A DNA stretch of 56,696 nt from an uncultured Eubacteriales bacterium (lineage in GTDB: Bacteria; Bacillota; Clostridia; Christensenellales; Aristaeellaceae): positions 1 to 56,696 of the forward strand of contig OMYT01000021.1 in NCBI GenBank assembly GCA_900315315.1. The letters run 5' to 3'. Both the position numbers and the translations under genes were made by a program. This document shows positions 3,991 through 56,502 of the stretch, in pieces. Each line of letters starts with the position of its first letter. Positions within the stretch are counted from its first letter, which is position 1. The notes beneath the pieces were generated by a model. The model saw only the letters and a program-made list of their open reading frames with translations. It made no database searches and had not been told where the DNA came from.

Positions 3991-4076
3991 AAGAGATTTC
4001 GCGGCTGCGGCCGCGACCAGGGCTTTCCTGCTCTTCCAACAAAGGCACCACTGGCGCCTTTGCCCTGGACCTTCGG
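3991..4076 (+). repeat. GCTTTCC hairpin repeat, long form with 5' extension (copy 1)
   Basis: Occupies most of the rpsB-tsf gap. The 5' extension AAGAGATTTCGC leads into a hairpin TCGCGGC-TGCG-GCCGCGA. Then comes an outer stem CCAGGGC (4017-4023) with GCCCTGG (4062-4068), and inside it the hairpin AAAGGCACC-ACT-GGCGCCTTT (4041-4061). The ACCTTCGG tail ends at 4076. The same 5' extension recurs at 45583. Confidence 0.8.
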
Positions 4077-4142
4077 CCCGAATGCGTTTGTCAAACTCCT
4101 TCGGGTTGAATGCTTATATTGATATGAAAGGATGAATTGAAT

Positions 4143-5069
4143 ATGGCAGCGATTACTTCCGCAATGGTTAAGGAACTGCGCGAGCGCACCAGCGCCGGCA
4201 TGATGGATTGCAAAAAGGCTCTGGTCGAGAGCGACGGAGATATGGAAAAAGCCATCGAATGGCTGCGTGAAAAGGGATTGAGCCAGGCGGCCAAGAAGGC
4301 CAGCCGCATCGCCGCTGAAGGCGTTGTCGCCCAGTACATCAGTGAAGACGGTACCATCGGCGCCATTGTCGAAGTCAACTGCGAGACCGACTTCGTGGCC
4401 AAGACCGACAACTTCATCGGCTTTGCCAACAAAGTTGCCAAGCAGGTGGCCCTGGCGAACCCCGCCGACGTGGATGCCCTGATGGCTCAGGCTTTCGTGG
4501 ACGACAGCAGCAAGACCATCAGCGACCTGGTCAGCGATGCGACCGTGGCGATCGGAGAGAAAATCTCCATCCGCCGGTTCAGCCGCTATGAGACCACGGG
4601 CGTTGTGAGCACCTATATCCATCTGGGCGGCAAGGTCGGCGTTATGGTCGAAGTGGCTGCAGACGCAGCCGGCCGCACCAACGATGCCGTGAAGACCTTT
4701 GCCCATGATCTGGCCCTGCAGATTGCCGCGGCCAAGCCCGAAGCTGTCCGCCGCGAAGAAGTGGACGCCAGCAAGCTGGAAAAGGAAAAGGAAATCTTGC
4801 GCGCCCAGGCCCTGAACGAAGGCAAGCCTGAGAAGATCGTCGAGCGCATGGTCGAAGGCCGGATCGAGAAGTACTACAAGGAAGTGTGCCTGCTTGAGCA
4901 GCCCTTCGTGAAGGATCCCGACAAGACCATCAAGGGCCTGATGGGTGAAATCGCCAAGGAAACCGGCGCGGAACTGGATATTGTGAAGTTTGCCCGCTTC
5001 GAGCGCGGTGAAGGCATTGAGAAGAGAAAGGACGATCTCGCAGCGGAGATCGCCGCAATGCAGAAATAA
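4143..5069 (+). CDS. tsf: Translation elongation factor Ts
   Basis: Guanine-nucleotide exchange factor for EF-Tu. The ATG at 4143 gives the canonical N-terminus [20 protein letters not shown] with [26 protein letters not shown], followed by [10 protein letters not shown] and the long dimerisation region; 308 residues, normal for the family. A TTG at 4137 (two residues longer) sits closer to the AAAGG ribosome-binding site and remains possible. Cotranscribed with rpsB; the operon ends at the terminator at 5095-5127. Confidence 0.97.
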
Positions 5070-5094
5070 AAACTGATTTGGTTCGAATACATTC

Positions 5095-5127
5095 AAACTG
5101 CTCTGAAAAGTCAGGGCAGTTTTTAAT
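5095..5127 (+). terminator. Rho-independent terminator of rpsB-tsf
   Basis: AAACTGCTCTG (5095-5105) pairs with CAGGGCAGTTT (5112-5122) with one G-U pair, loop AAAAGT, followed by a T-rich run. Confidence 0.85.
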
Positions 5128-5139
5128 TTAAATTTTCAG

Positions 5140-5169
5140 TTGTACAGGCATCCCCGGATATGATATACT
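5140..5169 (+). promoter_or_regulatory. Probable promoter of the NifU-like/GGGtGRT pair
   Basis: TTGTAC (5140-5145), an 18-base spacer and TATACT (5164-5169) with TGA before it as an extended -10. Confidence 0.5.
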
Positions 5170-5221
5170 AAATCGGTTACCAACACTAATCAACAACCTG
5201 AGACAGGAGGAACCGAGTCAC

Positions 5222-5923
5222 ATGCAATACACCAAAGAAGTGGAAGAAATGGTCTGTGTTGCGAAGGGCCCGAATCACGGCCCAGCGCCGATTCCCGAAG
5301 AGGGAAAGTGGATCCAGGCCAAGGAGATCAAGGACATTTCCGGTTACACCCATGGCATCGGCTGGTGTGCTCCCCAGCAGGGCACCTGCAAGCTGAGCCT
5401 GAACGTCAAGAACGGCGTCATCGAGGAAGCGCTGGTGGAGACCATCGGCTGCTCCGGCATGACTCACTCTGCCGCCATGGCCAGTGAAATCCTTCCGGGC
5501 AAGACGATCCTGGAAGCGCTGAACACCGACCTGGTGTGCGATGCCATCAACACCGCCATGCGTGAGCTGTTTCTGCAGATCGTATACGGCCGGACCCAGA
5601 GCGCCTTCTCCGATGACGGTCTGCGCATCGGCGCCGGTCTGGAAGACCTGGGCAAGGGCCTGCGGTCCATGGTCGGTACGATGTACGGCACCCGCGAAAA
5701 GGGCACCCGTTACCTGGAGATGACCGAGGGCTATGTTGTGAAGATGGCCCTGGACAAGGATGACCAGGTCTGCGGATACCAGTTTCTGAGCCTGGGCAAG
5801 ATGATGGACGCGATCAAGAAGGGCATGAGCCCCAACGAAGCGTACGAAAAGAACCTGGGTACCTACGGCCGGTTCAAGGCTGAAGACGGCGCGGTCAAGT
5901 GGATCGACCCGCGCAAGGAATAA
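5222..5923 (+). CDS. NifU/IscU-like iron-sulfur scaffold family protein, partner of GGGtGRT protein
   Basis: 233 residues related to the iron-sulfur scaffold (NifU N-terminal) fold. Conserved features are GIGWCAPQQGTCKLSL near residues 46-60 and ETIGCSGMTHSAAMASEIL near 75-95, followed by ALNTDLVCDAINTAMRELF. Three Cys in these blocks could bind a metal or a cluster, as in NifU-type scaffolds. No NifS/IscS desulfurase lies nearby, so a classical scaffold role is uncertain. It precedes the GGGtGRT gene by 17 bases, a pairing I recall as conserved in anaerobes. ATG at 5222 has AGGAGGAA eleven bases upstream. Confidence 0.8.
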   Translation: MQYTKEVEEMVCVAKGPNHGPAPIPEEGKWIQAKEIKDISGYTHGIGWCAPQQGTCKLSLNVKNGVIEEALVETIGCSGMTHSAAMASEILPGKTILEALNTDLVCDAINTAMRELFLQIVYGRTQSAFSDDGLRIGAGLEDLGKGLRSMVGTMYGTREKGTRYLEMTEGYVVKMALDKDDQVCGYQFLSLGKMMDAIKKGMSPNEAYEKNLGTYGRFKAEDGAVKWIDPRKE

Positions 5924-5940
5924 GGGGAGGTGCGACACGA

Positions 5941-6960
5941 ATGGCTTTGTTTGAAAACTATGAAGGCCGCATGCCTCAGCTGCAGCCTGTTCTGGACAAA
6001 TATGGATTCAAAAACTTTGACGAGGTGAAGGCATTCACCAACGGCAAGGGCGTCGACGCCTACTCTATCGTGGAGAGCACCCAGCCCATTTGTTTCGAGA
6101 ACGTGAAGTGGGCCTATGAACTGGGCGCTGCCATTGCCATCAAGGAAGGTGCGAAGAATGCTGCGGAAGCCGCCAAGTGGATCGGCACTGCACTGCAGGC
6201 CTTCTGCATCCCCGGCTCCGTCGCGGACCAGCGCCAGGTCGGTATCGGCCACGGCAACCTGGGCGCGATGCTGCTGGACGAAGAGACCGAATGCTTCGCG
6301 TTCCTGGCGGGCCATGAAAGCTTCGCTGCCGCGGAAGGCGCGATCAAAATCGCTCTGAACGCCAACAAAGTGCGGAAAAAGCCCCTGCGGGTCATCCTGA
6401 ACGGCCTGGGCAAGGACGCCGCGATGATTATCAGCCGGATCAACGGCTTCACCTACGTGCAGACGAAGTATGACTATCTGAGCGCAGACGTGAAGGAAGA
6501 CCACGCGCTGACCGTCGTGAAGAAGACCGCCTACTCCACCGGAGACCGGGCGAAGGTCAACTGCTACGGCGCGGACGATGTGCGCGAAGGCGTTGCCATC
6601 ATGTGGCATGAGGGTGCGGACATCTCCATCACCGGCAACAGCACGAACCCCACGCGGTTCCAGCATCCCGTTGCAGGCACGTACAAAAAGGAACGCTGGG
6701 AAGCCGGCAAGAAGTACTTCTCCGTGGCCAGCGGCGGCGGCACCGGCCGGACGCTGCATCCCGACAATATGGCTGCCGGTCCTGCCAGCTATGGCATGAC
6801 GGACACCATGGGACGGATGCACAGCGACGCGCAGTTTGCCGGAAGCTCCAGCGTGCCTGCGCACGTGGAGATGATGGGTTTCCTGGGCGCCGGAAACAAC
6901 CCGATGGTCGGTATGACCGTTGCGGTGGCTGTTGCGGTGCAGGAAGCGCTGAACAAGTAA
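5941..6960 (+). CDS. GGGtGRT protein (family of unknown function)
   Basis: 339 residues containing the family-defining ASGGGTGRTLHPDNMA near residue 262. Other conserved-looking blocks are GIGHGNLGAMLLDEETECFAF, ITGNSTNPTRFQHPVAGTYK and AHVEMMGFLGAGNNPMVG. It has no signal peptide or membrane segment, so it should be cytoplasmic. Function is unknown; the constant neighbour is the NifU-like protein just upstream, which points to a joint role in metal or cluster chemistry (inference). The ATG at 5941 is chosen because GGGGAGGTG lies nine bases before it. The unit ends at a perfect 20-bp hairpin at 6965. Confidence 0.88.
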   Translation: MALFENYEGRMPQLQPVLDKYGFKNFDEVKAFTNGKGVDAYSIVESTQPICFENVKWAYELGAAIAIKEGAKNAAEAAKWIGTALQAFCIPGSVADQRQVGIGHGNLGAMLLDEETECFAFLAGHESFAAAEGAIKIALNANKVRKKPLRVILNGLGKDAAMIISRINGFTYVQTKYDYLSADVKEDHALTVVKKTAYSTGDRAKVNCYGADDVREGVAIMWHEGADISITGNSTNPTRFQHPVAGTYKKERWEAGKKYFSVASGGGTGRTLHPDNMAAGPASYGMTDTMGRMHSDAQFAGSSSVPAHVEMMGFLGAGNNPMVGMTVAVAVAVQEALNK

Positions 6961-6964
6961 TAAC

Positions 6965-7008
6965 GGCAATTGAAAAAGACTCCCGCAAGGGAGTCTTTTT
7001 CAATTGCC
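6965..7008. terminator. Bidirectional terminator, perfect 20-bp hairpin
   Basis: Two perfectly complementary 20-base arms (6965-6984 and 6989-7008) with a GCAA tetraloop. Runs of five A and five T inside the arms give a U-tract in both directions. It serves the GGGtGRT gene (+) and the M4 protease (-), whose stops lie 4-5 bases outside. Confidence 0.92.
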
Positions 7009-7012
7009 CGAA

Positions 7013-9625: not shown

Positions 9626-9642
9626 TTGCGTTTTCCTTTCCT

Positions 9643-9675
9643 GGGGGCTTTCCGATCGCCCCCAAACCCCTTCGG
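9643..9675 (+). repeat. GCTTTCC hairpin repeat, short form (copy 2)
   Basis: GGGGGC (9643-9648), loop TTTCCGATC, GCCCCC (9658-9663), then AAACCCCTTCGG. It lies in the 5' untranslated region of the M4 protease gene, which is transcribed on the opposite strand. Confidence 0.85.
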
Positions 9676-9712
9676 TTTTCATATTTGTTGGGAACATTTT
9701 CAGTGAGAATGT

Positions 9713-9776
9713 GGGGGCTTTCCGAGTGCCCTGGGCTTCCGCCCGTTTCTTGTTAATGAATACTTTTGGGCTGGTT
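9713..9776 (+). repeat. GCTTTCC hairpin repeat, decayed long form (copy 3)
   Basis: Starts GGGGGCTTTCCGAGTGCCC and continues with GGGCTTCCGCCCG, matching the first third of the long form. The inner CCACTGG hairpin and CCTTCGG tail are lost. Together with copy 2 it fills much of the 309-base gap between the protease and the SDR gene; the rest holds the SDR promoter region. Confidence 0.6.
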
Positions 9777-13541: not shown

Positions 13542-13634
13542 AAAAAACGGATCCCGGCAGAGAATTGCCTGTCCCGCAGAAACGATATATCTGCTGCCGC
13601 CGAGGCGGCCCGGCTTCCGAAAGCCTGATCATAC
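13542..13634 (-). promoter_or_regulatory. Probable NiCo (czcD-motif) riboswitch with overlapping terminator
   Basis: Reading 5' to 3' on the minus strand: TGATCAGGC (13631-13623); a short hairpin GGCTT-TCGG-AAGCC; GGGC opening a second hairpin GCCGC-CTCG-GCGGC; AGCAGA pairing with TCTGC; then GGGACAG (13575-13569). Order and conserved segments match the four-way-junction czcD/NiCo aptamer as I recall it. The P1 closing stem is weak or absent, the main doubt. GGGACAGGCA can instead pair imperfectly with TGCCGGGATCC (13559-13549), followed by six T (13547-13542). That terminator would compete with the metal-bound aptamer, an ON switch fitting a metal exporter. Confidence 0.65.
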
Positions 13635-13640
13635 CAAAGG

Positions 13641-13669
13641 ATTATAAAGGACAAAAGCACATCTGGCAA
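13641..13669 (-). promoter_or_regulatory. Promoter of the CDF gene
   Basis: Minus strand: TTGCCA (13669-13664), a 17-base spacer and a perfect TATAAT (13646-13641). Transcription would begin near 13634, at the 5' edge of the riboswitch-like leader. Confidence 0.65.
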
Positions 13670-17706: not shown

Positions 17707-17713
17707 GAAATAA

Positions 17714-17747
17714 GGGGGCTTTCCGATCGCCCCCTTAACCCCTTCGG
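17714..17747 (+). repeat. GCTTTCC hairpin repeat, short form (copy 4)
   Basis: GGGGGC (17714-17719), TTTCCGATC loop, GCCCCC (17729-17734), TTAACCCCTTCGG tail. It lies between two minus-strand genes (ald and the helicase) yet reads on the + strand. Confidence 0.9.
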
Positions 17748-19470: not shown

Positions 19471-19486
19471 AAATGCTCCTGACTAA

Positions 19487-19521
19487 GGGGACTTTCCGAT
19501 CGCCCCCTTAAACCCCTTCGG
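19487..19521 (+). repeat. GCTTTCC hairpin repeat, short form (copy 5)
   Basis: GGGGACTTTCC variant; GATCGCCCCC follows and the TTAAACCCCTTCGG tail ends at 19521. It precedes copy 6 in the 205-base gap between alaS and the NUDIX gene; both are followed by a similar TTTCGGGTGTA. Confidence 0.85.
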
Positions 19522-19545
19522 CTTTCGGGTGTAATGAGGATGATT

Positions 19546-19637
19546 GGGGGCTTTCCTGCCCGGGACTGCTGCCCGTTCTTCGCTGAGAAAGAGCCACTGG
19601 CTCTTTCTCCGGGCGCTCAGACCCCCTGGACCTTCGG
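19546..19637 (+). repeat. GCTTTCC hairpin repeat, long form (copy 6)
   Basis: Best-preserved long copy, with three nested stems: outer GGGGG (19546-19550) with CCCCC (19622-19626); middle GCCCG (19571-19575) with CGGGC (19610-19614); inner AGAAAGAGCC (19586-19595) with GGCTCTTTCT (19599-19608) around ACT. A TGGACCTTCGG tail follows. Confidence 0.9.
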
Positions 19638-23728: not shown

Positions 23729-24547
23729 ATGAAGATCTCTGATGCTTTTAAGAATGCCGGTCAGGTATATTTCGGGCACTTAGGCGCAGCGATGAAGTTC
23801 CTGGTGATTGAACTGTGCATGACGCTGGCAGCCCTTTCTCCGCTGCTGTTTCTGACGGCGGACGGGTGGATGAAATGGCTGGCGCTTCTGGTTATTCCGT
23901 TCTGGCTGATCCTGATGCTTTGGGCACGGGTGAATGCCGCGGGCGCCATGCGGGACGCGCTGAACGGCGGAAGCCTCTTCAGCGTGAAACTGGCGGATAC
24001 GACAGCGTATAAGGAAAAGTTCATTTACGGACTGAAACGCTGCATCATGCTGCTGCTGTGGGCGGCACCGCTGATTGCCAGCGTTGTGATTGCGCGGATC
24101 AATATGGCCGGGAAGACGGACGGATTGACCGTCCTTCGCGCGATCAAAAAATTCGGCGGCGGAGACCTGTCGACGGGTATGCTGTATCTGATCATTATCC
24201 TGATTGTATCAATTCTGATCTTTGCCTTTGGGTGTGCGTTCCACAGCGGAGACCGCCATGCCTTTGTGCGGGAAAACCCGAAGATGCTGAAAGGACACCG
24301 CGGAGGGGTCCTGCTGAGCTGGCTGTGCGCTTTGGTATCCATTATCCCGATGCTTATAGCGATCGCGGTGCTGGTGGTGCTCTTTATGCCGATCATTAAG
24401 GACCCATCCGGCTTTGTGACCGGGAAGATTGAAAAGCCCCCGATGAGCAAGTGCGCTATCATCGCGGGGATCGGGGGAGTGCTGACGCTTCCGTTCCTGC
24501 CGCTGCGGTCGCTGATTATCGCGGCATATGTGGATGGGATAAAATAA
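23729..24547 (+). CDS. Integral membrane protein of unknown function
   Basis: 272 residues with about six hydrophobic segments (for example LVIELCMTLAALSPLLFL, WLALLVIPFWLILMLW, LYLIIILIVSILIFAFGCAF and LIAIAVLVVLFMP). The cytosolic N-terminus ISDAFKNAGQVYFGHL resembles the start of proteins that modulate secretion or membrane lipid content, but I do not recognise the family. Start 23729 is preferred over 23723 because GGAGG lies eight bases before it and only two before 23723. A hairpin repeat begins at the first base after its stop. Confidence 0.75.
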   Translation: MKISDAFKNAGQVYFGHLGAAMKFLVIELCMTLAALSPLLFLTADGWMKWLALLVIPFWLILMLWARVNAAGAMRDALNGGSLFSVKLADTTAYKEKFIYGLKRCIMLLLWAAPLIASVVIARINMAGKTDGLTVLRAIKKFGGGDLSTGMLYLIIILIVSILIFAFGCAFHSGDRHAFVRENPKMLKGHRGGVLLSWLCALVSIIPMLIAIAVLVVLFMPIIKDPSGFVTGKIEKPPMSKCAIIAGIGGVLTLPFLPLRSLIIAAYVDGIK

Positions 24548-24582
24548 GGGGGCTTTCCGATCGCCCCCTTAGACCCCTTCGG
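24548..24582 (+). repeat. GCTTTCC hairpin repeat, short form (copy 7)
   Basis: GGGGGC, TTTCCGATC, GCCCCC, then TTAGACCCCTTCGG. It abuts the TAA of the membrane protein gene, so it may act as that gene's 3' structure. Confidence 0.9.
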
Positions 24583-24615: not shown

Positions 24616-24645
24616 GGAGACTTTCCGATCGCCCTGGATCTTCGG
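24616..24645 (+). repeat. GCTTTCC hairpin repeat, degenerate (copy 8)
   Basis: GGAGACTTTCCGATC, GCCCTGGATC, TTCGG. The outer stem is largely lost but loop and tail remain. Copies 7 and 8 fill the 137-base gap before the pseudouridine synthase gene. Confidence 0.75.
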
Positions 24646-25398: not shown

Positions 25399-25400
25399 CC

Positions 25401-25433
25401 GGGGGCTTTCCGATTGTCCCCAGACCCCTTCGG
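25401..25433 (+). repeat. GCTTTCC hairpin repeat, short form (copy 9)
   Basis: GGGGGC with GTCCCC (one G-U pair), TTTCCGATT loop, CAGACCCCTTCGG tail. Starts two bases after the stop of the pseudouridine synthase. Confidence 0.85.
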
Positions 25434-25441: not shown

Positions 25442-25476
25442 GCGAGGGCTTTCCGATCGCCCTCGCGCTCCTTCGG
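25442..25476 (+). repeat. GCTTTCC hairpin repeat, short form with a covarying stem (copy 10)
   Basis: GCGAGGGC (25442-25449), TTTCCGATC, GCCCTCGC (25459-25466), then GCTCCTTCGG. The stem has different sequence from most copies but eight perfect pairs. Confidence 0.9.
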
Positions 25477-27718: not shown

Positions 27719-27724
27719 CAAAAA

Positions 27725-27822
27725 GGGGGCTTTCCGATCTTCCTAGGCTGCCGCCTGTTCTTCGCTGAAAACTGTCCACTGGACAATTTTCCGGGCGCTA
27801 CGAACCCCTTAAACCCCTTCGG
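27725..27822 (+). repeat. GCTTTCC hairpin repeat, long form (copy 11, tandem with copy 12)
   Basis: GGGGGCTTTCCGATC start. Middle stem GCCTG with CGGGC (one G-U pair). Inner hairpin AAAACTGTCC (27768-27777), ACT, GGACAATTTT (27781-27790). The tail is AAACCCCTTCGG. The inner stem sequence is almost wholly different from copy 6 but still pairs. Confidence 0.9.
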
Positions 27823-27840: not shown

Positions 27841-27935
27841 AAGGGCTTTCCTGCCCTGGGCTGCTGCCCGTTCTTTGCGGAGAAAGAGCCACTGGCTCTT
27901 TCTCCGGGTGCTACGAACCTCTTAAACCTCTTCGG
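27841..27935 (+). repeat. GCTTTCC hairpin repeat, long form (copy 12)
   Basis: AAGGGCTTTCCTGCCC start, middle stem GCCCG with CGGGT (G-U), inner hairpin AGAAAGAGCC (27881-27890), ACT, GGCTCTTTCT (27894-27903), and the tail AAACCTCTTCGG. With copy 11 it makes up most of the 394-base gap between bioY and the esterase; both copies are followed by GCAACAATnCTTTTT. Confidence 0.9.
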
Positions 27936-28997: not shown

Positions 28998-29034
28998 CCA
29001 GGAGGCTTTCCGGTCGCCCCCTGGATCCCTTCGG
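28998..29034 (+). repeat. GCTTTCC hairpin repeat, short form (copy 13)
   Basis: CCAGGAGGC, TTTCCGGTC, GCCCCCTGG (one mismatch), ATCCCTTCGG tail. It begins five bases after the esterase stop. Confidence 0.8.
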
Positions 29035-29053: not shown

Positions 29054-29178
29054 CCAGGGGGGTTCCTGACCTTCCAACAAACCAGGGCTGCCGCCCGTTC
29101 TTCACTGAGAAAGAACCACTGGCTCTTTTTCCGAGCGTTACGAACCCACTGGCGCCTTTGCCCCCTGGACCTCTTCGG
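29054..29178 (+). repeat. GCTTTCC hairpin repeat, longest form with two CCACTGG elements (copy 14)
   Basis: Outer stem CCAGGGGG (29054-29061) with CCCCCTGG (29161-29168). Inside are AGAAAGAACC-ACT-GGCTCTTTTT and a second CCCACTGGCGCCTTTG half-element like the one in copy 1, so it looks like a composite of both inner types. Tail ACCTCTTCGG. It fills the gap before the GH51 stop. Confidence 0.8.
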
Positions 29179-33488: not shown

Positions 33489-34838
33489 ATGGCAGAGGAA
33501 GAGAAGAAAGGTGCGCGTACAGCGGGGGAGGCCGGATGGCACATTTCACGGTACAATCTGAGTGCGCCTGTGCCCGGGACGGATAATCTGGCGATTGCCA
33601 ATCTGTACAAAGGCACGTGCGCGGGATATTCTCCGCTGGAGCTTTATTTGCTGAGCGTGCTGGAAACGTTGCGGGAGGATCATCCGATCATCGATCGGTT
33701 TGCGAAGCGCGGCCTCATTACCAGGATCGATGAGCGTGCGGCACTGGAGACGATGGGACGGGCAGCCTGCGCCATGCCCTACGGCGTGGGGCTGACCATC
33801 TGCCCGACGATGAACTGCAACTTCGACTGTCCCTACTGTTTTGAACGTCACCGTCCCGGGAAAATGACCAAAGAGGTGCAGGATGACGTGGTTGCCCTGG
33901 CAAAGCGGATGATGGACGCTGCCGGCGGAAAGAATCTGAGCGTGACCTGGTTCGGCGGTGAGCCGCTGCTGGCAGCTGATGTGATCGAAAGCCTTTCTGA
34001 GCGGCTGATGGTACTGGCGAAGGAGAAGGGCGCCGAGTACTCCGCGGGAATCATTACCAACGGCTACCTGCTGACACAGAAAAACGCTGATATGCTCGGA
34101 CGCTGCGAAGTGAAGAACTGCCAGGTTACGATTGATGGCCTGGGCGCTACGCATGACGCTACCCGGCATCTTGTCGGCGGCGGGGCAACGTTTGACCGGA
34201 TCATCGAGAACCTGCGGACCGTGAAAATCCCCTTCAGGGTCAATATCCGCCAGAACGTGCAGGAAAGCAACATGAACGAGGTGGAAACGGTTCGGGAGCT
34301 GATCAGGAAACTGGCTGAGGAGTCCGGAAACGATATTACTTACGCACCGGCACCGGTTTCCTCCAACGAGGCAACCCGGGAACGCGGCGGGCAGGTAGGG
34401 TTGCTGTGTGCTTCCGATCTGAGCGAGATCGGCCTGATCCAGGAAGCGGGACGTTTTGCAGTCGGGCGCGGACATTACTGCGGTGCGAATGTGCTCTTTT
34501 CCGCAGTAATCGATGAGAATGGGGGCCTGTCAAAGTGCTGGGAAGCCGCCGGTGATCCGGAACTGAACTACGGGAACGCGCACGACTGGGATCCGAAGGA
34601 TCCGCTGAATACGGCGTCTGAGCCGGACAGGCTGACGATGTATCTGAACACGGCTATGCCGACCGGGGACGAAGAATGCCGCGAATGCGTGTGGCTGCCA
34701 ATGTGCGTCGGCGGCTGTCCGCACAGGAGACTGTTTTTCGGGAAAAGCTGCGTGGCATTCCGGGAACAGCCGGAACGATATGTGTTGGCGCTGCATGCGA
34801 GGATCGGGAAAGAAAAGAAGGAAAAGGACTGTGAGTAA
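33489..34838 (+). CDS. Radical SAM/SPASM protein, probable peptide- or protein-modifying enzyme
   Basis: 449 residues. After about 95 N-terminal residues (HISRYNLSAPVPGTDNLAIA and a helical segment), the radical SAM cluster motif is CNFDCPYCFE near 116-125. A SPASM/twitch domain follows with Cys at HYCGANVLFSA, SKCWEA, CRECVWLPMCVGGCPHRR and FFGKSCVAF. This layout belongs to RiPP maturases and anaerobic sulfatase-maturase relatives. No precursor peptide or sulfatase is adjacent, so the target is unknown. The downstream rsmA start (GTG 34831) overlaps its end by eight bases. Confidence 0.88.
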   Translation: MAEEEKKGARTAGEAGWHISRYNLSAPVPGTDNLAIANLYKGTCAGYSPLELYLLSVLETLREDHPIIDRFAKRGLITRIDERAALETMGRAACAMPYGVGLTICPTMNCNFDCPYCFERHRPGKMTKEVQDDVVALAKRMMDAAGGKNLSVTWFGGEPLLAADVIESLSERLMVLAKEKGAEYSAGIITNGYLLTQKNADMLGRCEVKNCQVTIDGLGATHDATRHLVGGGATFDRIIENLRTVKIPFRVNIRQNVQESNMNEVETVRELIRKLAEESGNDITYAPAPVSSNEATRERGGQVGLLCASDLSEIGLIQEAGRFAVGRGHYCGANVLFSAVIDENGGLSKCWEAAGDPELNYGNAHDWDPKDPLNTASEPDRLTMYLNTAMPTGDEECRECVWLPMCVGGCPHRRLFFGKSCVAFREQPERYVLALHARIGKEKKEKDCE

Positions 34839-35682
34839 AGGAAAGGAACGGATCCGTGACAGCGCACTGCGGTATAAGCAGTCGCTGGGGCAGAATTTTC
34901 TGTACGACGAGGCACTGCTTGCGGAACTGACGGCGGAGGCCGGGATCACGAAGGACGAGGATGTGCTGGAGATCGGCCCGGGATGCGGCAGCCTGACGAA
35001 GCATCTTTGTGATAAGGCGGGGCAGGTGACCGCAGTTGAACTGGACGAGCGGCTGATTCCGCTGCTACAGGCCTTCCTTGCGGAGAAAAAGAATCTGACC
35101 GTCGTGCAGGGAGATGTGATGACACTTGACCTGAAGCAGGTGACGGCGGGACTGCGCAAGCCCTTTGCCGTGGTGGCAAACATTCCGTACTATATTACGA
35201 CCCCGCTGATCCGGCTGCTGCTGGAAAGTGGGCTTGAGGTCAGCCGCCTGGCCCTGATGGTTCAGCAGGAGGTGGCAGACAAGATTCTTGCGGAGCCGGG
35301 GGACGATGCCTGGTGTCCGCTGTCCATTCTGTGTCAGTATCTGTGCGAACCGCGGCTGGCAGTGAAGGTGCCGGCGAAGATGTTTACACCCCCGCCGAAG
35401 GTGGACAGCGCATTTGTGGTATTACCTCTCCGGGAGAAACCGGCTGTGGAGGTCAGAAGCCGGGAAATGTTCTTCAGGGTGGCGGCTGCGGCTTTTGCCC
35501 TGCGGCGAAAGACGATGCTGAACAACCTGTGCGCCACCTTCCGGGTGGAGCGGGCGCAGGCGGCGGCATGGATGAAGCAAGCCGGATTGGATGAGAAGAT
35601 TCGCGGAGAGAAGCTTTCTCTTGAAGAGATAGCTTCTCTCGCAGATGAGATTGATAAGGGGGCTTTCCGATCGCCCCCCTGA
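34831..35682 (+). CDS. rsmA: 16S rRNA dimethyladenosine transferase
   Basis: Dimethylates two adjacent adenines near the 3' end of 16S rRNA (the KsgA reaction). 283 residues with KQSLGQNFL, the AdoMet loop EIGPGCGSLT, the catalytic NIPYYITTP and PPPKVDSAFV. A GTG at 34831 (RBS AAGGA) starts the protein inside the end of the radical SAM gene. The last residues, KGAFRSPP, and the stop are encoded by hairpin repeat copy 15, so the natural C-terminus has been replaced or extended by the repeat. Confidence 0.93.
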   Translation: MSKGKERIRDSALRYKQSLGQNFLYDEALLAELTAEAGITKDEDVLEIGPGCGSLTKHLCDKAGQVTAVELDERLIPLLQAFLAEKKNLTVVQGDVMTLDLKQVTAGLRKPFAVVANIPYYITTPLIRLLLESGLEVSRLALMVQQEVADKILAEPGDDAWCPLSILCQYLCEPRLAVKVPAKMFTPPPKVDSAFVVLPLREKPAVEVRSREMFFRVAAAAFALRRKTMLNNLCATFRVERAQAAAWMKQAGLDEKIRGEKLSLEEIASLADEIDKGAFRSPP

Positions 35683-35692
35683 CCCCCTTCGG
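35658..35692 (+). repeat. GCTTTCC hairpin repeat, short form, inside the rsmA coding end (copy 15)
   Basis: GGGGGC (35658-35663), TTTCCGATC, GCCCCC, CTGACCCCCTTCGG. The rsmA stop TGA (35680-35682) lies just after the second arm, and the tail merges with the GGGAGG ribosome-binding site of dut. Confidence 0.92.
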
Positions 35693-36187: not shown

Positions 36188-36210
36188 GCGAGGGTCTCGC
36201 GCTTCTTCGG
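36188..36210 (+). repeat. GCTTTCC hairpin repeat, remnant without loop (copy 16)
   Basis: GCGAGGGTCTCGC followed by GCTTCTTCGG, best read as a copy-10-like element that lost the TTTCCGATC loop. It lies between dut and the GNAT-ManA gene. Confidence 0.5.
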
Positions 36211-42519: not shown

Positions 42520-42525
42520 AAGAAA

Positions 42526-42565
42526 GGGGACTTCCAGGCGCGACGAGCACCTTAAACCCCTTCGG
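42526..42565 (+). repeat. GCTTTCC hairpin repeat, degenerate (copy 17)
   Basis: GGGGACTTCCAGGCGCGACGAGCA with the tail CCTTAAACCCCTTCGG; the second stem arm is lost. It starts seven bases after the SH3 gene stop. Confidence 0.55.
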
Positions 42566-45582: not shown

Positions 45583-45639
45583 AAGAGATTTCGCACCTGC
45601 GGGCGCGACCAGGGCTTTCCGATCGCCCTGGACCTTCGG
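45583..45639 (+). repeat. GCTTTCC hairpin repeat, short form with 5' extension (copy 18)
   Basis: The 5' extension AAGAGATTTCGC leads into the hairpin TCGCACC-TGCG-GGCGCGA (45591-45608), matching copy 1 with a swapped C-G pair. Then CCAGGGC (45609-45615), TTTCCGATC, GCCCTGG (45625-45631), ACCTTCGG. It lies between the permease and binding-protein genes. Confidence 0.88.
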
Positions 45640-51095: not shown

Positions 51096-51148
51096 CGAAG
51101 ATGCAGATGCAGGGGTACCGGATGTTCCAAAATGGAACGTCACAGTAT

Positions 51149-51213: not shown

Positions 51214-51314
51214 ACAAGTATGAGAAGAATCGGTCGGAAGGTGTAACAATTAAGCGAATGCCTTACTGAGCACCGGATGACGGACAGACTTCCCCGAAAA
51301 GGAGTGAATGCTGC

Positions 51315-51830
51315 GTGACTTCCAGAACCTGGATGCGTTTTCTGTGTCTGCTGCTGTGCCTGACGGTACTGCTCCCCTGTGTTTCGGCGATGGCGGAGAC
51401 AGCCAAGGTGAAGGTGAATCTGCTGCGCCTGCGGGCTGCGGCTTCCGATAAATCCAGGGTGCTTGACGCCTATGCCAAAGGAACCGAGGTCACGGTCCTG
51501 AAGAAGGGACCGGAGTGGACGAAGGTCAGGGTGCGTAACAAGACCGGATATATGATGACCAAAATGCTCACTTTCAAAAATTCTTCTTCCTCGAATTCCG
51601 GCAGCAGCAGCGGTTCAACGATGTACGTGGCGAAGGACTGCAGACTGTATCTCCGGGCAGAGCCGGATTCAAATTCCGAGATTCTCGGTACTTTCCGCGG
51701 CGGAACAGCCGTGACGGTCCTGAAAAAGGGCAAATACTGGTACAGGGTTTCCGTGAAGGGCCTGGAAGGTTACATGGGTAAGGAGTACCTGGTGGAGCAA
51801 AAGGGACAGACTGTTGAAGAGAACCTCTGA
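51315..51830 (+). CDS. Secreted protein with two SH3b domains
   Basis: 171 residues: signal peptide (FLCLLLCLTVLLPCVSAMA), then two SH3b units (KVNLLRLRAAASDKSRVLDA and DCRLYLRAEPDSNSEILGTF, each ending in GY-M and followed by VTVLKKG) joined by a Ser-rich linker. SH3b units bind cell-wall peptides; without a catalytic domain it may be a wall-anchored or sensing protein. The GTG at 51315 is chosen for its AAAAGGAG ribosome-binding site. Confidence 0.82.
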   Translation: MTSRTWMRFLCLLLCLTVLLPCVSAMAETAKVKVNLLRLRAAASDKSRVLDAYAKGTEVTVLKKGPEWTKVRVRNKTGYMMTKMLTFKNSSSSNSGSSSGSTMYVAKDCRLYLRAEPDSNSEILGTFRGGTAVTVLKKGKYWYRVSVKGLEGYMGKEYLVEQKGQTVEENL

Positions 51831-51862
51831 TACCTTTTCAGCCGGAAAGGAAATGACGCAAA

Positions 51863-51900
51863 AACAGCCGCTCACGATGTGGGCGGCTGTTGATTTTACA
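51863..51900 (+). terminator. Terminator of the SH3b gene
   Basis: AACAGCCGC (51863-51871) pairs with GCGGCTGTT (51883-51891), followed by GATTTTA. The T-rich tail overlaps the -35 of the next promoter. Confidence 0.75.
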
Positions 51901-51923
51901 ACCGTGGACTGCGGTGATATAAT
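51895..51923 (+). promoter_or_regulatory. Promoter of the LRR protein gene
   Basis: TTTACA (51895-51900), 17-base spacer, TATAAT (51918-51923) with TGA before it. Confidence 0.65.
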
Positions 51924-51958
51924 GATCCGGTTAAGAAATTGTTTTACCGGAGGTTCCG

Positions 51959-52933
51959 ATGAGAAACAGACTGATCACCGCTTTGATGATTCTGACGGGC
52001 ATCCTGCTGATCTGCACCGGCGCGCTCGGCGAGGATGTGACCCTGACCGTGAACGGGCAGACGTTTACCTGCGCTGCCGACGTGACACAGATTGACCTGG
52101 GGGATGTGACCATCCCGGATACGGATGAGGACTACGCTGCCCTGCGGGCGTTCCTGGACAAGCTGCCCGGCCTGACGAAGGTGGACATGTTCTCCACGGA
52201 CATCTCCCCGGAGCGGCTGCTGGCGCTGGCTCCGGACTATCCGCAGATCAAGTTCGGCTGCACCATCATCATTCCCTGCCGCAACACCCTGCGCAAGGAC
52301 CGGCCGCCGCACCGCCTGCGGACGGATGATACCGCTTTTTCCACCCAGCACAACCTTTCCTCCTCTTCGCACGACGAGAGCGTATGGGAAGTACTGAAGT
52401 ACTGCCCGGACCTGCTGGCGCTGGATATCGGCCACAACAATACCATCAAGGATTATTCCTTCCTGAACTACGTGCCCAACCTGCGCGTGCTGATCATGTC
52501 CTTTAACCGGAACCAGCGGGGCGAGGAGGGACCGCCGATCGATATCTCACCGATCGGAAACATGAAGGATCTGGAATATCTGGAGATCTGCAAGAGCAAT
52601 ATCGCCGACATTTCGCCGCTGGCCAACTGCACGAAGCTGATGGACCTGAACATCGGGACCAACCATATCAAGGACCTGACCCCGCTTTACGGGCTCAAGT
52701 CCCTTCGCAAGCTTTTCCTGTTCAGCTGCCACAACTATTCGGGAAAAGCGATTCCCAAGGAGGAAGTCAAGGAACTGCAGGAGCACATTCCGGACTGCGT
52801 CATCAACAATACGCACCTCAACTGCGGCGGGCCCTGGAGACAGGGATCGCATTACCAGACGCTGGCATCCATGTTCAGTTATCAGATGCTTGACAAGCCC
52901 CAGGCTTACGAGCCTTTTGAAGACGAAGACTGA
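51959..52933 (+). CDS. Secreted leucine-rich repeat protein
   Basis: 324 residues: signal peptide (LITALMILTGILLICTGALG), an N-terminal domain of about 110 residues (LTVNGQTFTCAADVTQIDLG), then about five leucine-rich repeats of internalin-like pattern (LEYLEICKSNIADISPLANC, LMDLNIGTNHIKDLTPLYGL). Such domains mediate protein binding. No sortase motif or membrane anchor is present; it ends in an acidic YEPFEDED. Its last 28 bases overlap the end of the convergent Lgt-like gene. Confidence 0.82.
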   Translation: MRNRLITALMILTGILLICTGALGEDVTLTVNGQTFTCAADVTQIDLGDVTIPDTDEDYAALRAFLDKLPGLTKVDMFSTDISPERLLALAPDYPQIKFGCTIIIPCRNTLRKDRPPHRLRTDDTAFSTQHNLSSSSHDESVWEVLKYCPDLLALDIGHNNTIKDYSFLNYVPNLRVLIMSFNRNQRGEEGPPIDISPIGNMKDLEYLEICKSNIADISPLANCTKLMDLNIGTNHIKDLTPLYGLKSLRKLFLFSCHNYSGKAIPKEEVKELQEHIPDCVINNTHLNCGGPWRQGSHYQTLASMFSYQMLDKPQAYEPFEDED

Positions 52934-53847
52934 GTTTTCCCGGCCCACAGCCAGGCGGCAATCAGCCCGGCGGTGGTCAGCGCGAACACGATGACCGCGA
53001 GCAGGGCGATATCCGTATTCTCAGGCAGGGGAAAGAGATAAGGTTTATCCTGCACGAACTGCATCAGGGCATTCAGCCCCAGCAGCAGGACCGTAACAAT
53101 GAGCGGTCCTGCTTTTTTGATCTGCACCGTCCGGCGGATCATCAGGATCAGGAGAATCACGGCGCAGAGCACCTGCTCCAGATGAATGAAGCTGATGATA
53201 AACGGGATCCAGGAGGAAGTGGTGCAGAGCATCTCCAGGAAAATCATGACAGCGCACAGGATAAAGGCCGCGCTTTCGAAACGGTATCCGGGCGCTGCCG
53301 GCTTCTTTGAAAGCGTCAGCCACAGGGCGCACAGCAAAGCGGCCAGCGCCATGAACGTTGAGATGGACAGATCGGGAAGCCCCCAGCCGTTAAGGATTGC
53401 GAAAGGCCAGACAGCGGGCAGAAAAGCGGGCATCTCGCCCAGGTTGATAAAGCCGAATCCCGTCTCGGCCAACCGGGCAAAGGCGATGAGGATACAGCCG
53501 GGAACGGCCATCGCGTCCAGGGCGGGCTTTGCCTCCGCCCGGCTGACTTTCGCGGCGATGAAGGTGCCCAGGGCAAAACCGACGCAGCCGCCGGTAAAGG
53601 ACATTTCATCCGGCCGGAGGGAAAAGACCGTCTCCCCGTCAAGGCTTCCGCCGTTGAAGATCAGGTTCGGCACAAGGAAAAAGAACCTGGCGCCGACGAC
53701 GGCCAGGATCGTGCCGAAGACAACCGAGAGCGGCGCGCACAGCAGCTTCAGGCCGGCTTTTTTCAGAGAAAAGGCATAAAGGAGGCCGAACACAAGCAGC
53801 CCGGCCGCATACAGGCCCCAGACCAGGCCCGGATTCTGAAAGTCCAT
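52906..53847 (-). CDS. Lgt-like multi-pass membrane protein, probably not a standard diacylglyceryl transferase
   Basis: 313 residues with about eight membrane segments. The block EMSFTGGCVGFALGTFIAAK, then ARLAETGFGFINLGEMPAFL, matches the pattern of prolipoprotein diacylglyceryl transferase (SFHGGxxG then GRxGNFxNxE). The essential His of HGG is Thr, and the GRxGNF loop is changed. It may act on another lipid-linked substrate or be inactive. Four bases after the NAGPA-type gene on the same strand, so they are probably made together. ATG at 53847. Confidence 0.6.
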   Translation of the reverse strand: MDFQNPGLVWGLYAAGLLVFGLLYAFSLKKAGLKLLCAPLSVVFGTILAVVGARFFFLVPNLIFNGGSLDGETVFSLRPDEMSFTGGCVGFALGTFIAAKVSRAEAKPALDAMAVPGCILIAFARLAETGFGFINLGEMPAFLPAVWPFAILNGWGLPDLSISTFMALAALLCALWLTLSKKPAAPGYRFESAAFILCAVMIFLEMLCTTSSWIPFIISFIHLEQVLCAVILLILMIRRTVQIKKAGPLIVTVLLLGLNALMQFVQDKPYLFPLPENTDIALLAVIVFALTTAGLIAAWLWAGKTQSSSSKGS

Positions 53848-53851
53848 TGTT

Positions 53852-54835
53852 TTACAGTCCCTCCGCGGAAACGAAATAGATCACATCCTGCAGCTTCCGG
53901 ACGGATTTGTTCGGCCTTCCGTTGATCCGGTCACCGTGGAAGAAGAGCATCGCGGAATCGCCGCCGTCGAGATTGTAGGCGGTCTGTACGTCTTCCTGGG
54001 CGCAAAGGCGGGCGAAATCCAGCAGGGTCAGGCCGGTGTTCTGCCTGAGATCGTAACCGGTTCCGCTTCTGTAGGGCCCGCTGCAGCAGATGATTTTGTA
54101 ATGCAGGGGACCGGCCTGGCAGATGGCGATGCGGGAGCGCTCGTTCTCAAAGGCCATGTTCAGCCACCAGTCGGCATGTTCAAAGTCATCCACGCCCTTC
54201 CCGTCCCTGACCAGGGCAGGCCCGAAGCACAGGGAGTTCAGGATGCGCTTGCCGTTCCAGCGCATGTTTTCGATGTCTCCCTTTTTGGCCAGGTGGACAA
54301 TATGGAAGTCACCGTCTTCGTCAATAATCAGGATATCCATGAGTTTGGCGTGCCAATGGTCGTCTGTATCCAGGTTATCCTTATACAGGGCGCCCTGGCG
54401 AACATAGTACCCGAAGCCTTTTTTCTCCACGCCGAAGGTGAAATCGCCGTTCAGGCCGACCACGGCATTCAGCAGGGTGCACAGCGCCACGCCGTCCATC
54501 TCGGCGCTGCGCAGGAAATTGCCGGAGGCGGAGGCGGTCCGCAGCTGGGAGGGATCCGCGATGACAATGTCGGCCACCCAGTAGTCGCACTGGTCCTCAA
54601 ACCGCTTGGTTTCAATATTTACACGGATGGTGCTGTCCTCATAGGAGGTTTCGGTATAGGCAGACTCGACTGCATGGGGATCGATCACGGACAGATCGAT
54701 CGGCAGCTTATAGTCCGTCCGGTCGGAAAAGTCCAGACTGTCCAGCTCCTTATCCCCCCAGGTAGCCGCGCTCAGAAGAGGCAGCAGAACCGCCAGACCC
54801 AGCGCCGCAAGCCGTTTTCCAACAGAGTTTCTCAT
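53852..54835 (-). CDS. Secreted phosphodiester glycosidase (NAGPA) domain protein
   Basis: 327 residues with signal peptide (RLAALGLAVLLPLLSAATWG) and the NAGPA domain: LNAVVGLNGDFTFG, FGPALVRDGKG and the diagnostic AYNLDGGDSAMLFFHGDRIN near 283-302. It resembles the protein at 10753, but with little sequence identity outside these blocks. A role in trimming or binding phosphodiester-linked wall glycans is likely (inference). Followed at four bases by the Lgt-like gene. Confidence 0.82.
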   Translation of the reverse strand: MRNSVGKRLAALGLAVLLPLLSAATWGDKELDSLDFSDRTDYKLPIDLSVIDPHAVESAYTETSYEDSTIRVNIETKRFEDQCDYWVADIVIADPSQLRTASASGNFLRSAEMDGVALCTLLNAVVGLNGDFTFGVEKKGFGYYVRQGALYKDNLDTDDHWHAKLMDILIIDEDGDFHIVHLAKKGDIENMRWNGKRILNSLCFGPALVRDGKGVDDFEHADWWLNMAFENERSRIAICQAGPLHYKIICCSGPYRSGTGYDLRQNTGLTLLDFARLCAQEDVQTAYNLDGGDSAMLFFHGDRINGRPNKSVRKLQDVIYFVSAEGL

Positions 54836-54874
54836 GCCTCGAACACCATTCCTTCGTCATATTGCGTATCTAAT

Positions 54875-54903
54875 ATCCTATCATATCCGGGAACCCTTCG
54901 CAA
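54875..54903 (-). promoter_or_regulatory. Possible promoter of the NAGPA/Lgt-like pair
   Basis: Minus strand TTGCGA (54903-54898), 17-base spacer, TAGGAT (54880-54875). Confidence 0.4.
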
Positions 54904-55038
54904 GGGGAAGAAAGCCGGGGGTGTGACATTCCGGAACCCGTCTTGAATATCCTGATGAATTATGGTAACCTCTGATTAACAGATCCGACCCGATCGGATC
55001 AGATGTGTTCCCCATCCTCCGCATGGGAGGTGCGGGGG

Positions 55039-55050
55039 CTGAATTCTGAA
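55039..55050. repeat. AATTCAGAATT short repeat (copy F, inverted)
   Basis: CTGAATTCTGAA, opposite orientation to copies C-E, just before the ribosome-binding site of the small protein gene. Confidence 0.45.
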
Positions 55051-55072
55051 AAAGGAAAAGGAGAAAACGGAG

Positions 55073-55267
55073 ATGAAAACGATCGAGGAACTGTTCAATG
55101 AAGTAAAGGCGAACGAGAAACTGAAGGAAGAAGGGATTGCGGCGATCCAGGAAGGGAAGCTGGGGGCTTTTATGAAGGCCCACGGCTGTGATGCCTCGGA
55201 GAAAGACGCGATCGCGTATGTGAAGGCGAGGGCGGAAAAAGCAGGCATTCCCCTGTTCTTCCTGTGA
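55073..55267 (+). CDS. Small helical protein, possibly Nif11-like
   Basis: 64 residues, MKTIEELFNEVKANEKLKEE at the start and ARAEKAGIPLFFL at the end. The pattern of an N-terminal helix with L-x(2)-L-x(3)-N/D-x-x-L, then LGAFMKAHGCDASEKDAIAY, resembles Nif11-type leader domains, but there is no GG cleavage motif or core peptide, so a RiPP precursor is doubtful. A GGAG ribosome-binding site precedes ATG 55073. The leader holds two small hairpins (GATCCGA-TCGGATC near 54982 and CCTCC-GGAGG near 55016). A terminator follows at 55301. Confidence 0.6.
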   Translation: MKTIEELFNEVKANEKLKEEGIAAIQEGKLGAFMKAHGCDASEKDAIAYVKARAEKAGIPLFFL

Positions 55268-55300
55268 TCTTTAAGATCCGGGGTTTTTGAACGGCACAAA

Positions 55301-55339
55301 ATGAAAAAGGGGCTGTCATAAGCGGCAGCTCCTCTTCAT
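55301..55339. terminator. Bidirectional terminator between the small gene and murG
   Basis: ATGAAAAAGGGGCTG (55301-55315) pairs with CAGCTCCTCTTCAT (55326-55339) with G-U pairs. On the minus strand CCCCTTTTTCATTTT gives a U-run for murG. Confidence 0.65.
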
Positions 55340-55388
55340 TTGGTCAAAAACCGACAATCTCACAGGATTCCGGCGTACAGCCTTTGCT

Positions 55389-56456
55389 TTATTTCTGCTG
55401 GATTTCTTCAATCATCTCGAGCACGCGCTTCGTTCCGTCCGCGGGCGGAGCGTTTTTCAGCGCTTCAGTGAGGGTTTCGCGGTCGGCCCAGGTGGCATGG
55501 ACTGCTTCCGCGAGGGAGGCAGGGTTCATATCCTCCTGAAAGAGCACGCGGCATAGACCGCGTTTTTCCAGGCTCTTCGCATTGAGAATTTGGTCGCCGC
55601 GGCTGGCCCCCTTCGGATAGGGAATCAGGAGCATCGGCCGGCCCAGGGCCTGGAACTCGCACAGCGCATTTGCCCCGGCGCGGGACAGGACCAGGTCCGC
55701 GCATGCCAGCGCGTCCGGCAGTTCGGCGTCGAGGAATTCGATCTGACAGTAACCGGGGGTGCCGTCCAGCCCGGGATCCAGATTCCCCTTGCCGCAGATA
55801 TGCGCGATATCAAAGTCGTCCGTCAGGCGGGGAAGGGCTTTGCGCAGGCATTCGTTGACGCTCTGGGCGCCGGAGGATCCGCCCATCATGAGCAGGACGG
55901 GCTTGCTGCCGTCAAAGCCGAAAAGCTTCAGGCCCGCTTCCCGCGAACCGGTGAACAGCTCGGGCCGCAGCGGGGTGCCCGTCATTTCCGCTTTTTTGCC
56001 GAGGGCCTCGGCGCACTCCGGGAAGGTCGTGGCAAAGCGCTTCGCGAAGGGGCGGCACAGCTTGTTGGCGAGACCGGGGGTCAGGTCACTCTCATGGCAG
56101 AGGACCGGGATCCGGTGCAGCCAGGCGCCGAAAACCACCGGGACCGCCACGAAGCCGCCCTTGGAGAAGACGACGTTCGGCCGGATTTTTCCCATCAGGC
56201 GGGCGGACTGGAACGCGCCCGCAATGACCCGGAAGGGATCGGTGAAATTCTGCCAGGAGTGATACCGGCGGAGCTTGCCGCTCTTGACTGCGTGATAGGT
56301 CACGCCCGGCACGGCGCGCATTCTCGGCGCTTCCATGCCGTTCTCGGTGCCGATGTAATGGATTTCATATCCGGCTTCCTGCAGGTGGGGGATCAGGGCA
56401 AGGTGGGGCGTCACATGACCTAATGTGCCGCCGCCGGTAAGGACGATCTTTTTCAT
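55389..56456 (-). CDS. murG: UDP-GlcNAc:lipid II precursor GlcNAc transferase
   Basis: Adds N-acetylglucosamine to lipid I, making lipid II on the inner membrane face. 355 residues, GT28 fold. The N-terminal loop TGGGTLGHVTPHLAL is the GGTGGH-like acceptor site; SKGGFVAVPVV, CHESDLTPGLANK and MGGSSGAQSVNE follow, and the donor site SRAGANALCEFQALGRPMLL with GDQILNAKSLEK is intact. It stands apart from other mur genes here. ATG at 56456, preceded by repeat copy 19, which supplies a GGAGG-like stretch on the opposite strand only. Confidence 0.93.
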   Translation of the reverse strand: MKKIVLTGGGTLGHVTPHLALIPHLQEAGYEIHYIGTENGMEAPRMRAVPGVTYHAVKSGKLRRYHSWQNFTDPFRVIAGAFQSARLMGKIRPNVVFSKGGFVAVPVVFGAWLHRIPVLCHESDLTPGLANKLCRPFAKRFATTFPECAEALGKKAEMTGTPLRPELFTGSREAGLKLFGFDGSKPVLLMMGGSSGAQSVNECLRKALPRLTDDFDIAHICGKGNLDPGLDGTPGYCQIEFLDAELPDALACADLVLSRAGANALCEFQALGRPMLLIPYPKGASRGDQILNAKSLEKRGLCRVLFQEDMNPASLAEAVHATWADRETLTEALKNAPPADGTKRVLEMIEEIQQK

Positions 56457-56464
56457 TCAATATT

Positions 56465-56502
56465 CCGGAGGGCTTTCCGATCGCCCTCCGGACCTCCTTC
56501 GG
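56465..56502 (+). repeat. GCTTTCC hairpin repeat, short form with a 9-bp covarying stem (copy 19)
   Basis: CCGGAGGGC (56465-56473), TTTCCGATC, GCCCTCCGG (56483-56491), ACCTCCTTCGG. It lies in the 5' region of murG, which is on the minus strand. Confidence 0.92.

Follow-up and report, generated by a model that had tools for sequence, protein, structure and literature searches.

A dispersed repeat with a covarying loop-tail pseudoknot and skew-following orientation in an Aristaeellaceae genome and its relatives

Why would a short hairpin repeat keep its stems paired while their letters change, and point one way whatever the strand of the genes beside it? The question is raised by a contig of 56,696 nt (OMYT01000021.1, assembly GCA_900315315.1; hereafter the window) from an uncultured Eubacteriales bacterium of the family Aristaeellaceae. 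An earlier inspection of the letters (the sequence-only reading) had described a modular family of 19 hairpins here, with compensatory changes in their stems. Counted by eye from pattern matches, the window does hold 19 copies, all on the plus strand between 4017 and 56502; a structural detector finds 10 of them, the remaining ones being long, diverged or broken. The description as a modular hairpin family with compensated stems stands but is incomplete, since the fold is an H-type pseudoknot, a conclusion well supported by covariation. The sequence-only reading overlooked the pairing of loop with tail, the register kept by the linker and the link of orientation to replication, all described below. 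At slightly less than even confidence, we favour an explanation in which the repeat is a dispersed, non-autonomous single-stranded DNA element that would enter DNA at the replication fork through a putative enzyme.

On the G-rich strand the unit is ~37 nt long and comprises a 9-bp stem (S1), the loop TTT-CCG-ATC, the 3′ arm of S1, a linker and a terminal TT-CGG. Most detected copies (256 of 282) have a loop of 9 nt. Since the detector already demands a stem, the fair test of S1 is a count on loop-anchored sequences, of which no stem was demanded beyond one C-G pair. Among 212 distinct loop-anchored sequences with a tail, pairs 2-7 are Watson-Crick in 185-205. In 189 distinct sequences, pairs 5-9 are paired at frequencies of 0.93, 0.95, 0.88, 0.84 and 0.74, against 0.54, 0.62, 0.35, 0.29 and 0.31 after shuffling, and pairs 10-11 are at background; the stem is therefore 9 bp long, although pairs 1-4 are too invariant to judge. 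Pairing in 40 loop anchors that have no tail is near the shuffled level. In 58 distinct copies chosen by the detector, 128 cells show a double change against 37 (sd 5.5) in shuffles, a value reached in 0 of 500 shuffles, and 96.0% of cells are paired, falling to 51-60% when the partner is slid by one column; two other tallies of this set, 6 pairs showing any double change and 18 additional pair types, are no higher than in shuffles. The compensatory changes claimed for the outer stem are thus borne out against both shuffles and slides. Pairing higher than the shuffled mean is also seen in the inner CCAC[TC]GG hairpins of the long copies, for which the 46 distinct candidates include chance matches. 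Secondary-structure prediction, run on two copies and their complements, returned the S1 hairpin only (-7.1 to -9.3 kcal/mol).

The CCTTCGG sequence noted earlier as a tail is indeed common to the copies, but it is not a mere tail: paired with the loop, it makes up the 3′ side of a pseudoknot. This second helix, S2, joins loop CCG to tail CGG and covaries as GCG/CGC. The fourth loop base matches the base that follows CTTCG in 245 of 253 distinct loop-anchored sequences (227 C/G, 18 G/C, 8 mismatched). In a set of 36 copies the variable pair is C-G in 26, G-C in 9 and unpaired in one; the remaining two S2 pairs are invariant there and thus uninformative. In G022, a genome of the same genus, copies with a TTTGCG loop end in TTCGC and those with a TTTCCG loop end in TTCGG, and both kinds occur in G052 and in viral contigs. 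G058 carries a third loop form, TTTCCGCTC, with the tail unchanged.

The linker keeps in register with the purine arm of S1. When 91 distinct perfect-stem types were aligned from the tail end, C stood opposite G in 333 of 338 positions (211 of 213 where G has a G on either side). Opposite A (n = 89) the linker holds 62 A, 19 T, 6 G and 2 C; some of these A may simply reflect an A-rich linker start, and the internal positions are the most telling, with 14 T and 8 A opposite the 22 A that have G as both neighbours. The G-to-C match of 0.983 compares with a shuffled mean of 0.864 (maximum 0.892) and is lowered by shifting the register or permuting linkers. Viewed on the complementary strand, the linker runs antiparallel to the purine arm and places G at G and A or T at A, which we take to be purine-motif triplets. 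We therefore infer that the complementary strand is the one that folds, and that the linker may lie along S1 as a purine-motif triplex. A pyrimidine-motif triplex on the written strand was rejected, as it needs T at A, met in only 19 of 89 cases.

Could the stems be kept perfect without selection on the fold? Template switching makes imperfect inverted repeats more perfect (PMC7202029), and neutral inverted repeats corrected in this quasipalindrome fashion at the fork would have the variable yet perfect stems seen here. However, copying from arm to arm accounts neither for the loop-tail covariation nor for the parallel-register linker, and template switching does not account for dispersal without common flanks. 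It is contradicted for S2 and the linker and may contribute to the stems; as the whole explanation we give it only a slim chance.

The copies are not limited to the window: the repeat is found through the genome and in relatives, both by core matches and by a covariance model. The genome of origin (G000) is a 4.26-Mb draft in 197 contigs, 89% complete. A 17-nt core, GGGCTTTCCGATCGCCC, allowed up to two mismatches, occurs at 256 places in it (171 forward, 85 reverse), and the reversed-pattern control gave 0 matches there. The detector, which overlooks most long, nested or broken copies, found 117 copies in 775 kb of G000 (the window plus 40 stretches, mostly picked for holding copies), compared with 3 on reversed sequence. 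A further 57 half-elements were listed outside these counts; inspection by eye shows them to be long modules without coding sequence, broken copies and chance matches within coding sequence.

Orientation follows GC skew and not gene strand, which is well supported by the sequences of five genomes. In G000 it has the sign of the skew of the copy's own stretch in 114 of 117 cases, and the three discordant copies all lie in one stretch with a skew of 0.0035. Agreement is found for 17 of 18 copies in G038, 12 of 13 in G004 and 4 of 4 in G040; in G044, 6 of 8 detector matches agree and the other two have unrelated stems. By hand count, none of the 21 G000 contigs with at least two cores is mixed in orientation among the 100 of 256 places listed. 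Relative to genes (simple gene caller), 68 of the 117 copies are sense to both neighbours, 22 are antisense to both and 13 and 4 are mixed, the other 10 falling within a gene or next to the end of a stretch; 74% of coding bases in the G000 stretches lie on the skew-positive strand. In G044 the nearest genes are on the same strand in 5 cases and on the opposite strand in 11. Skew on its 3.26-Mb main contig switches at ~1.72 Mb and ~0.1-0.3 Mb, and five short copies follow the chromosome arms in the 30 stretches read. An orientation that is fixed along each arm regardless of genes argues for a one-strand event at the fork.

These data bear on the proposal that the repeat works in RNA past stop codons, as a terminator, an intercistronic regulator or a determinant of mRNA stability. 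Such a role would fit the sharp peak of copies close behind genes, with 40 of the 84 copies that have a sense upstream gene beginning no more than 15 nt past its stop, and the 42 of 68 units on viral contigs that are sense to both neighbours. Against this, 22 chromosomal and 12 viral-contig copies are antisense to both neighbours. No T-run of an intrinsic terminator is conserved after TTCGG in 105 copies, which show single weak T columns only, and only 7 of the 501 standard pairs in the 58-copy table are G-U. Rfam has no match to the copies: the window as a whole gives only a riboswitch, and a permissive scan of one copy-bearing piece gave two far sub-threshold matches. Both the scarcity of wobble pairs and an orientation independent of gene strand speak against the RNA processing or stability element that had been suggested, and we judge an RNA role very improbable. 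On the written strand, isolated unpaired stem positions (n = 59) comprise 23 A.C against 10 G.T or T.G. In the favoured explanation the repeat would act as DNA rather than RNA.

A host-useful polar signal for replication or segregation is another candidate; here a protein would read the folded or duplex site and selection would fix the strand, as for Chi, KOPS or a primosome assembly site. The near-perfect skew polarity in several species of the genus and the density of 256 cores in 4.26 Mb speak for it, and polarity along replichores is a property such motifs have in common with the repeat. However, KOPS, Chi and other polar motifs are 8-mers without a fold, whereas here the unit is structured, 37 nt long and ranges from 0 to 256 core matches within one genus. 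The near-complete G001 and G023 of the same genus have 0 core matches, other genera of the family keep both orientations, and few genomes of the order (7 of 297) give evidence of the unit. We therefore regard a polar signal as quite improbable.

What disperses has sharp ends. Only 2 of 5460 pairs of copies have a common downstream flank (30 of 40 bases), and next to nothing is conserved outside the pseudoknot in the TAAGGGGGC type and the mixed rest. As flanks are unrelated, the dispersing unit is ~37 nt (~60 nt with the upstream hairpin H0 described below) rather than a longer duplicated stretch. Among relatives with ~76-88% DNA identity, orthologous gaps vary in the presence and type of copy: the site of the 17711 copy is occupied in L038 and empty in L033 and L034, and the gap between alanine dehydrogenase and NUDIX genes holds a copy in L034 and none in the window. 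Only 4 of 117 G000 copies lie inside genes by the simple gene caller, the coding share of the sequence being 0.89. Derivation of the outer stem from the target by fold-back copying was not supported, since TAAGGGGGC occurs at stop codons and elsewhere alike. Nesting of modules within one another is seen by eye at 29054-29178 in the window. Ornate repeats of several hundred nt with nested hairpins and CCACTGG apices were observed in G002 and G023 (L311 7700-8700, L312, L313, L308, L304, L307); they contain modules such as CCGCAAYCTCAAT, and their inner module is common with the long copies of the window and present in both orientations. One piece scanned against Rfam gave only sub-threshold matches, and in 18 stretches read from these two genomes the detector gave two matches, both with unrelated stems.

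At least one core match is present in 77 of 120 relatives, but most have 1-3, little more than the 0-3 per genome of the reversed control. Genomes with clearly many copies include G004, G022, G024, G029 and G038 in the genus and G052, G058 and G068 elsewhere in the family; G068 has the most core matches among the genomes searched (322 in 2.1 Mb). Six of the seven genomes of the order in which the covariance model detects the unit belong to the window's family, one of them (G305) with a single match that the detector did not confirm; the seventh, G266, has four matches on one 8-kb contig. A phylum-wide covariance search with strict filters recovered, among the matches scored, only the window's own genome of 398. 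The unit also occurs on viral contigs, where 46 of 49 stretches with an exact core hold it in full (68 units in total), and four unannotated human-faecal scaffolds filed as phage contain a perfect copy of the query. With one copy as query, no match was found in plasmids. An origin in single-stranded DNA phages was rejected, because the examined viral contigs encode tailed-phage head and packaging proteins; eight proteins of three small viral contigs are tailed-phage portal, terminase, protease and capsid. Composite arrangements were observed in two genomes. G058 has 110-nt tandem arrays of hairpin, pseudoknot and terminator-like hairpin (L144-L149) that face an inverted copy ~600-750 nt off across similar, apparently non-coding sequence, and G068 has ~120-440 nt composites (L153-L155, L272, L273), many with inward-pointing CCAGGGGGC-type and CCAAAGGGC-type copies at their ends.

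Familiar REP-like repeats form simple hairpins and are associated with a Y1 transposase (PMC2817692). A likeness to REP elements had been raised before and holds in style, as the copies are high-copy intergenic hairpins (256 core matches in G000); formal membership fails. REP elements mobilized by RAYT, a Y1 transposase of the HUH class, carry the tetranucleotide GT[AG]G at a distance of 0-2 nt on the 5′ side of the hairpin and are searched for by a loop of 2-5 nt or a bulged long hairpin (PMC6006769), and their cognate transposase gene is present in the genome and flanked by repeats (PMC2817692). Here, no such GT[AG]G foot was found in 105 short copies of G000, and the usual loop is 9 nt. Like the repeat, REP, BIME and REPIN sequences with their RAYT (TnpA_REP) are short, high-copy, intergenic, hairpin-based, patchy among relatives and sometimes in inverted pairs; unlike them, it has a pseudoknotted loop and, in five genomes, a replication-locked orientation. 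Y1 genes exist in many genomes of the genus, as mobilization by RAYT would lead one to expect, but their presence does not match that of the copies. The Y1 profile PF01797 has no match in the multi-copy G068, G058 and G052 (92-97% complete), nor was it found in G031 and G040, in a set where some drafts are incomplete; it is present in G001, G013, G023 and G042, which have no core. None of the eight Y1 loci read contains a copy. Co-occurrence and gene neighbourhood thus disfavour a Y1 mobilizer, and the copies are, in our view, highly unlikely to be REP elements mobilized by a RAYT. The best of only three Y1 matches in G000 is split over two open frames (G000:C49:1484-1767).

Other known systems offer partial parallels. 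IS200/IS605 ends, recognized by TnpA, resemble the repeat in being folded single-stranded DNA in which separate segments of a site pair over a short length, and in their coupling to the lagging strand, which provides a known precedent for single-strand transposition there (PMC6006769). Their pairing partner lies 5′ of the hairpin foot, whereas here it lies in the loop, and the Y1 loci read hold no copy. Stem-loop repeat families of bacteria (BOX, RUP, NEMIS, Bcr1; Cozzuto et al., 2008, PMC2267715) are likewise dispersed, structured and in many cases intergenic; a term search of that paper finds neither pseudoknot nor orientation, and its table includes the Clostridium families Clop-1 and Clot-1. 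The earlier remark that no named family like this is known agrees with our search of the open-access literature, which gave no description of it; subscription papers lay outside that search.

How, then, might the repeat spread as single-stranded DNA? The unit of dispersal would be one folded stretch of ~37 nt, which a putative enzyme would join into single-stranded gaps on the lagging side of the fork; insertion into such gaps would give all copies on one chromosome arm the same orientation. Because copies that break genes would be selected against, those remaining would be intergenic, often directly past stop codons, and longer copies would arise by hairpin modules nesting in the loop. The mobilizing enzyme is probably neither a Y1 (RAYT/IS200) transposase nor a reverse transcriptase. 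With regard to a retroelement or group II intron origin, the reverse transcriptase profile PF00078 was not found in the carriers G068, G022, G024, G031, G021 and G040, several of which are incomplete, but it is present in six others (named below), and of six reverse transcriptase loci only one (L201) gave a detector match, with an unrelated stem. By eye, no autonomous long version with a gene in its loop was evident among the 57 half-elements listed, and no open reading frame was suggested between the inverted arrays of G058 (lists for L149 and L146). A fuller version of the proposal appears to us rather unlikely: the mobile unit would itself be a natural DNA pseudoknot under selection, with its purine-motif triplex on the strand that is complementary to the template of lagging synthesis, and would be joined to nascent lagging DNA of hosts and phages by an enzyme outside the known HUH and reverse transcriptase classes, growing by the nesting of hairpins in hairpins.

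Several observations weigh against fork-coupled dispersal of single-stranded DNA. Profile searches for Y1 and reverse transcriptase and the reading of loci yielded no mobilizing gene, and PF00078 is present in the carriers G000, G004, G029, G038, G052 and G058. No pair of genomes is close enough to give exact junctions, and no insertion event was caught. The mismatch asymmetry is smaller in the loop-anchored set (40 G.T and T.G against 50 A.C and C.A of 1696 cells), could be mutational and would also suit an RNA made from the other strand; the triplex is likewise a reading of the letters. The orientation rule holds in most closely read genomes of the genus and is not universal. A diverged minus-strand copy at 1718.66 kb in G044 conflicts with its 20-kb stretch (skew 0.074), although it lies just before the switch and the skew beside it is still negative (-0.03). 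The dnaA gene of G044 is at 0.458 Mb (G044:C1:458394), far from the skew switch at ~1.72 Mb, from which the origin is located; rpmH, at 1.437 Mb, is closer to the switch. The term 'leading strand' is therefore applied on the strength of the skew rule and of the overall strand bias of genes. In three stretches of G040 only 41% of coding bases are on the skew-positive strand, and in G022, 4 of 19 cores among the matches listed oppose local skew (hand count). Outside the genus, G058, G052, G068 and G275 hold both orientations, in convergent pairs, tandem arrays and singles.

The copies in the window are collected in Table 1. Two are preceded by an extra hairpin, H0, which is kept 5′ of the CCAGGGC-type group in G000 (19 copies; at least one has no H0). 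The sequence TTTCCGATC occurs 14 times in the window against 0.9 expected, 10 times within copies and four times outside them (14007, 16004, 30659 and 52552), and CCTTCGG occurs 41 times against 13 expected. An open reading frame at 34780-35682 runs into the 35658 copy and has its stop codon in that copy's linker; its C-terminus may have been replaced through insertion of the copy. The riboswitch mentioned above is a NiCo (nickel/cobalt) aptamer on the minus strand at 13567-13642 (44.6 bits; gathering score 37). For the alanine dehydrogenase encoded in the window, the best match among those listed is 94% identical, and the nearest listed are from metagenome-assembled genomes of Clostridia, many from the rumen; the list may omit very close records.

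Table 1. Copies of the repeat and associated H0 hairpins in the window
Coordinates	Strand	Feature	Details
3995..4016	+	Extra upstream hairpin H0	GATTTCGC-GGCTGCGGCC-GCGA, 5′ of CCAGGGC-type copy
4017..4076	+	Long copy	Stem CCAGGGC, inner CCACTGG hairpin in loop; flanked by ribosomal protein S2 and elongation factor Ts genes
9642..9675	+	Short pseudoknot copy	
9711..9749	+	Long copy, truncated	GTGGGGGCTTTCCGAGTGCCC...
17711..17747	+	Short copy	Flanked by minus-strand DEAD helicase and alanine dehydrogenase genes
19484..19521	+	Short copy	Both adjoining genes on opposite strand
19544..19637	+	Long copy	Inner hairpin AGAAAGAGC-CACTG-GCTCTTTCT
24545..24582	+	Short copy	Initial TAA is stop codon of preceding gene
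24616..24645	+	Short copy, diverged	GGAGAC/GCCCTGG
25400..25433	+	Short copy, diverged	
25442..25476	+	Short copy	Linker GCTCC, stem GCGAGGGC
27723..27822	+	Long copy	Inner AAAACTGTC hairpin
27841..27935	+	Long copy	Inner AGAAAGAGC hairpin
28998..29034	+	Short copy	Single A.C mismatch in stem; 4 nt 3′ of stop codon
29054..29178	+	Nested diverged copy	Inner module inside apical loop of another (by eye)
35658..35692	+	Short copy	
36188..36210	+	Loop-less remnant	GCGAGGGTCTCGCGCTTCTTCGG
42523..42565	+	Diverged remnant	
45587..45608	+	H0 hairpin	Directly 5′ of 45609 copy
45609..45639	+	Short copy	Stem CCAGGGC
56464..56502	+	Short copy	Linker CCTCC, stem TCCGGAGGGC; immediately upstream of minus-strand glycosyltransferase-28 gene

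The covariation points to a tertiary DNA fold and the orientation ties the spread of the repeat to the replication fork. In G068, the genome richest in core matches, no Y1 transposase and no reverse transcriptase were found. If the favoured explanation is true, the repeat would represent a DNA pseudoknot that occurs in nature and is kept by selection, it would reveal a new mode of mobility for small elements, and its copies would constitute a sequence record of single-stranded DNA at replication forks.

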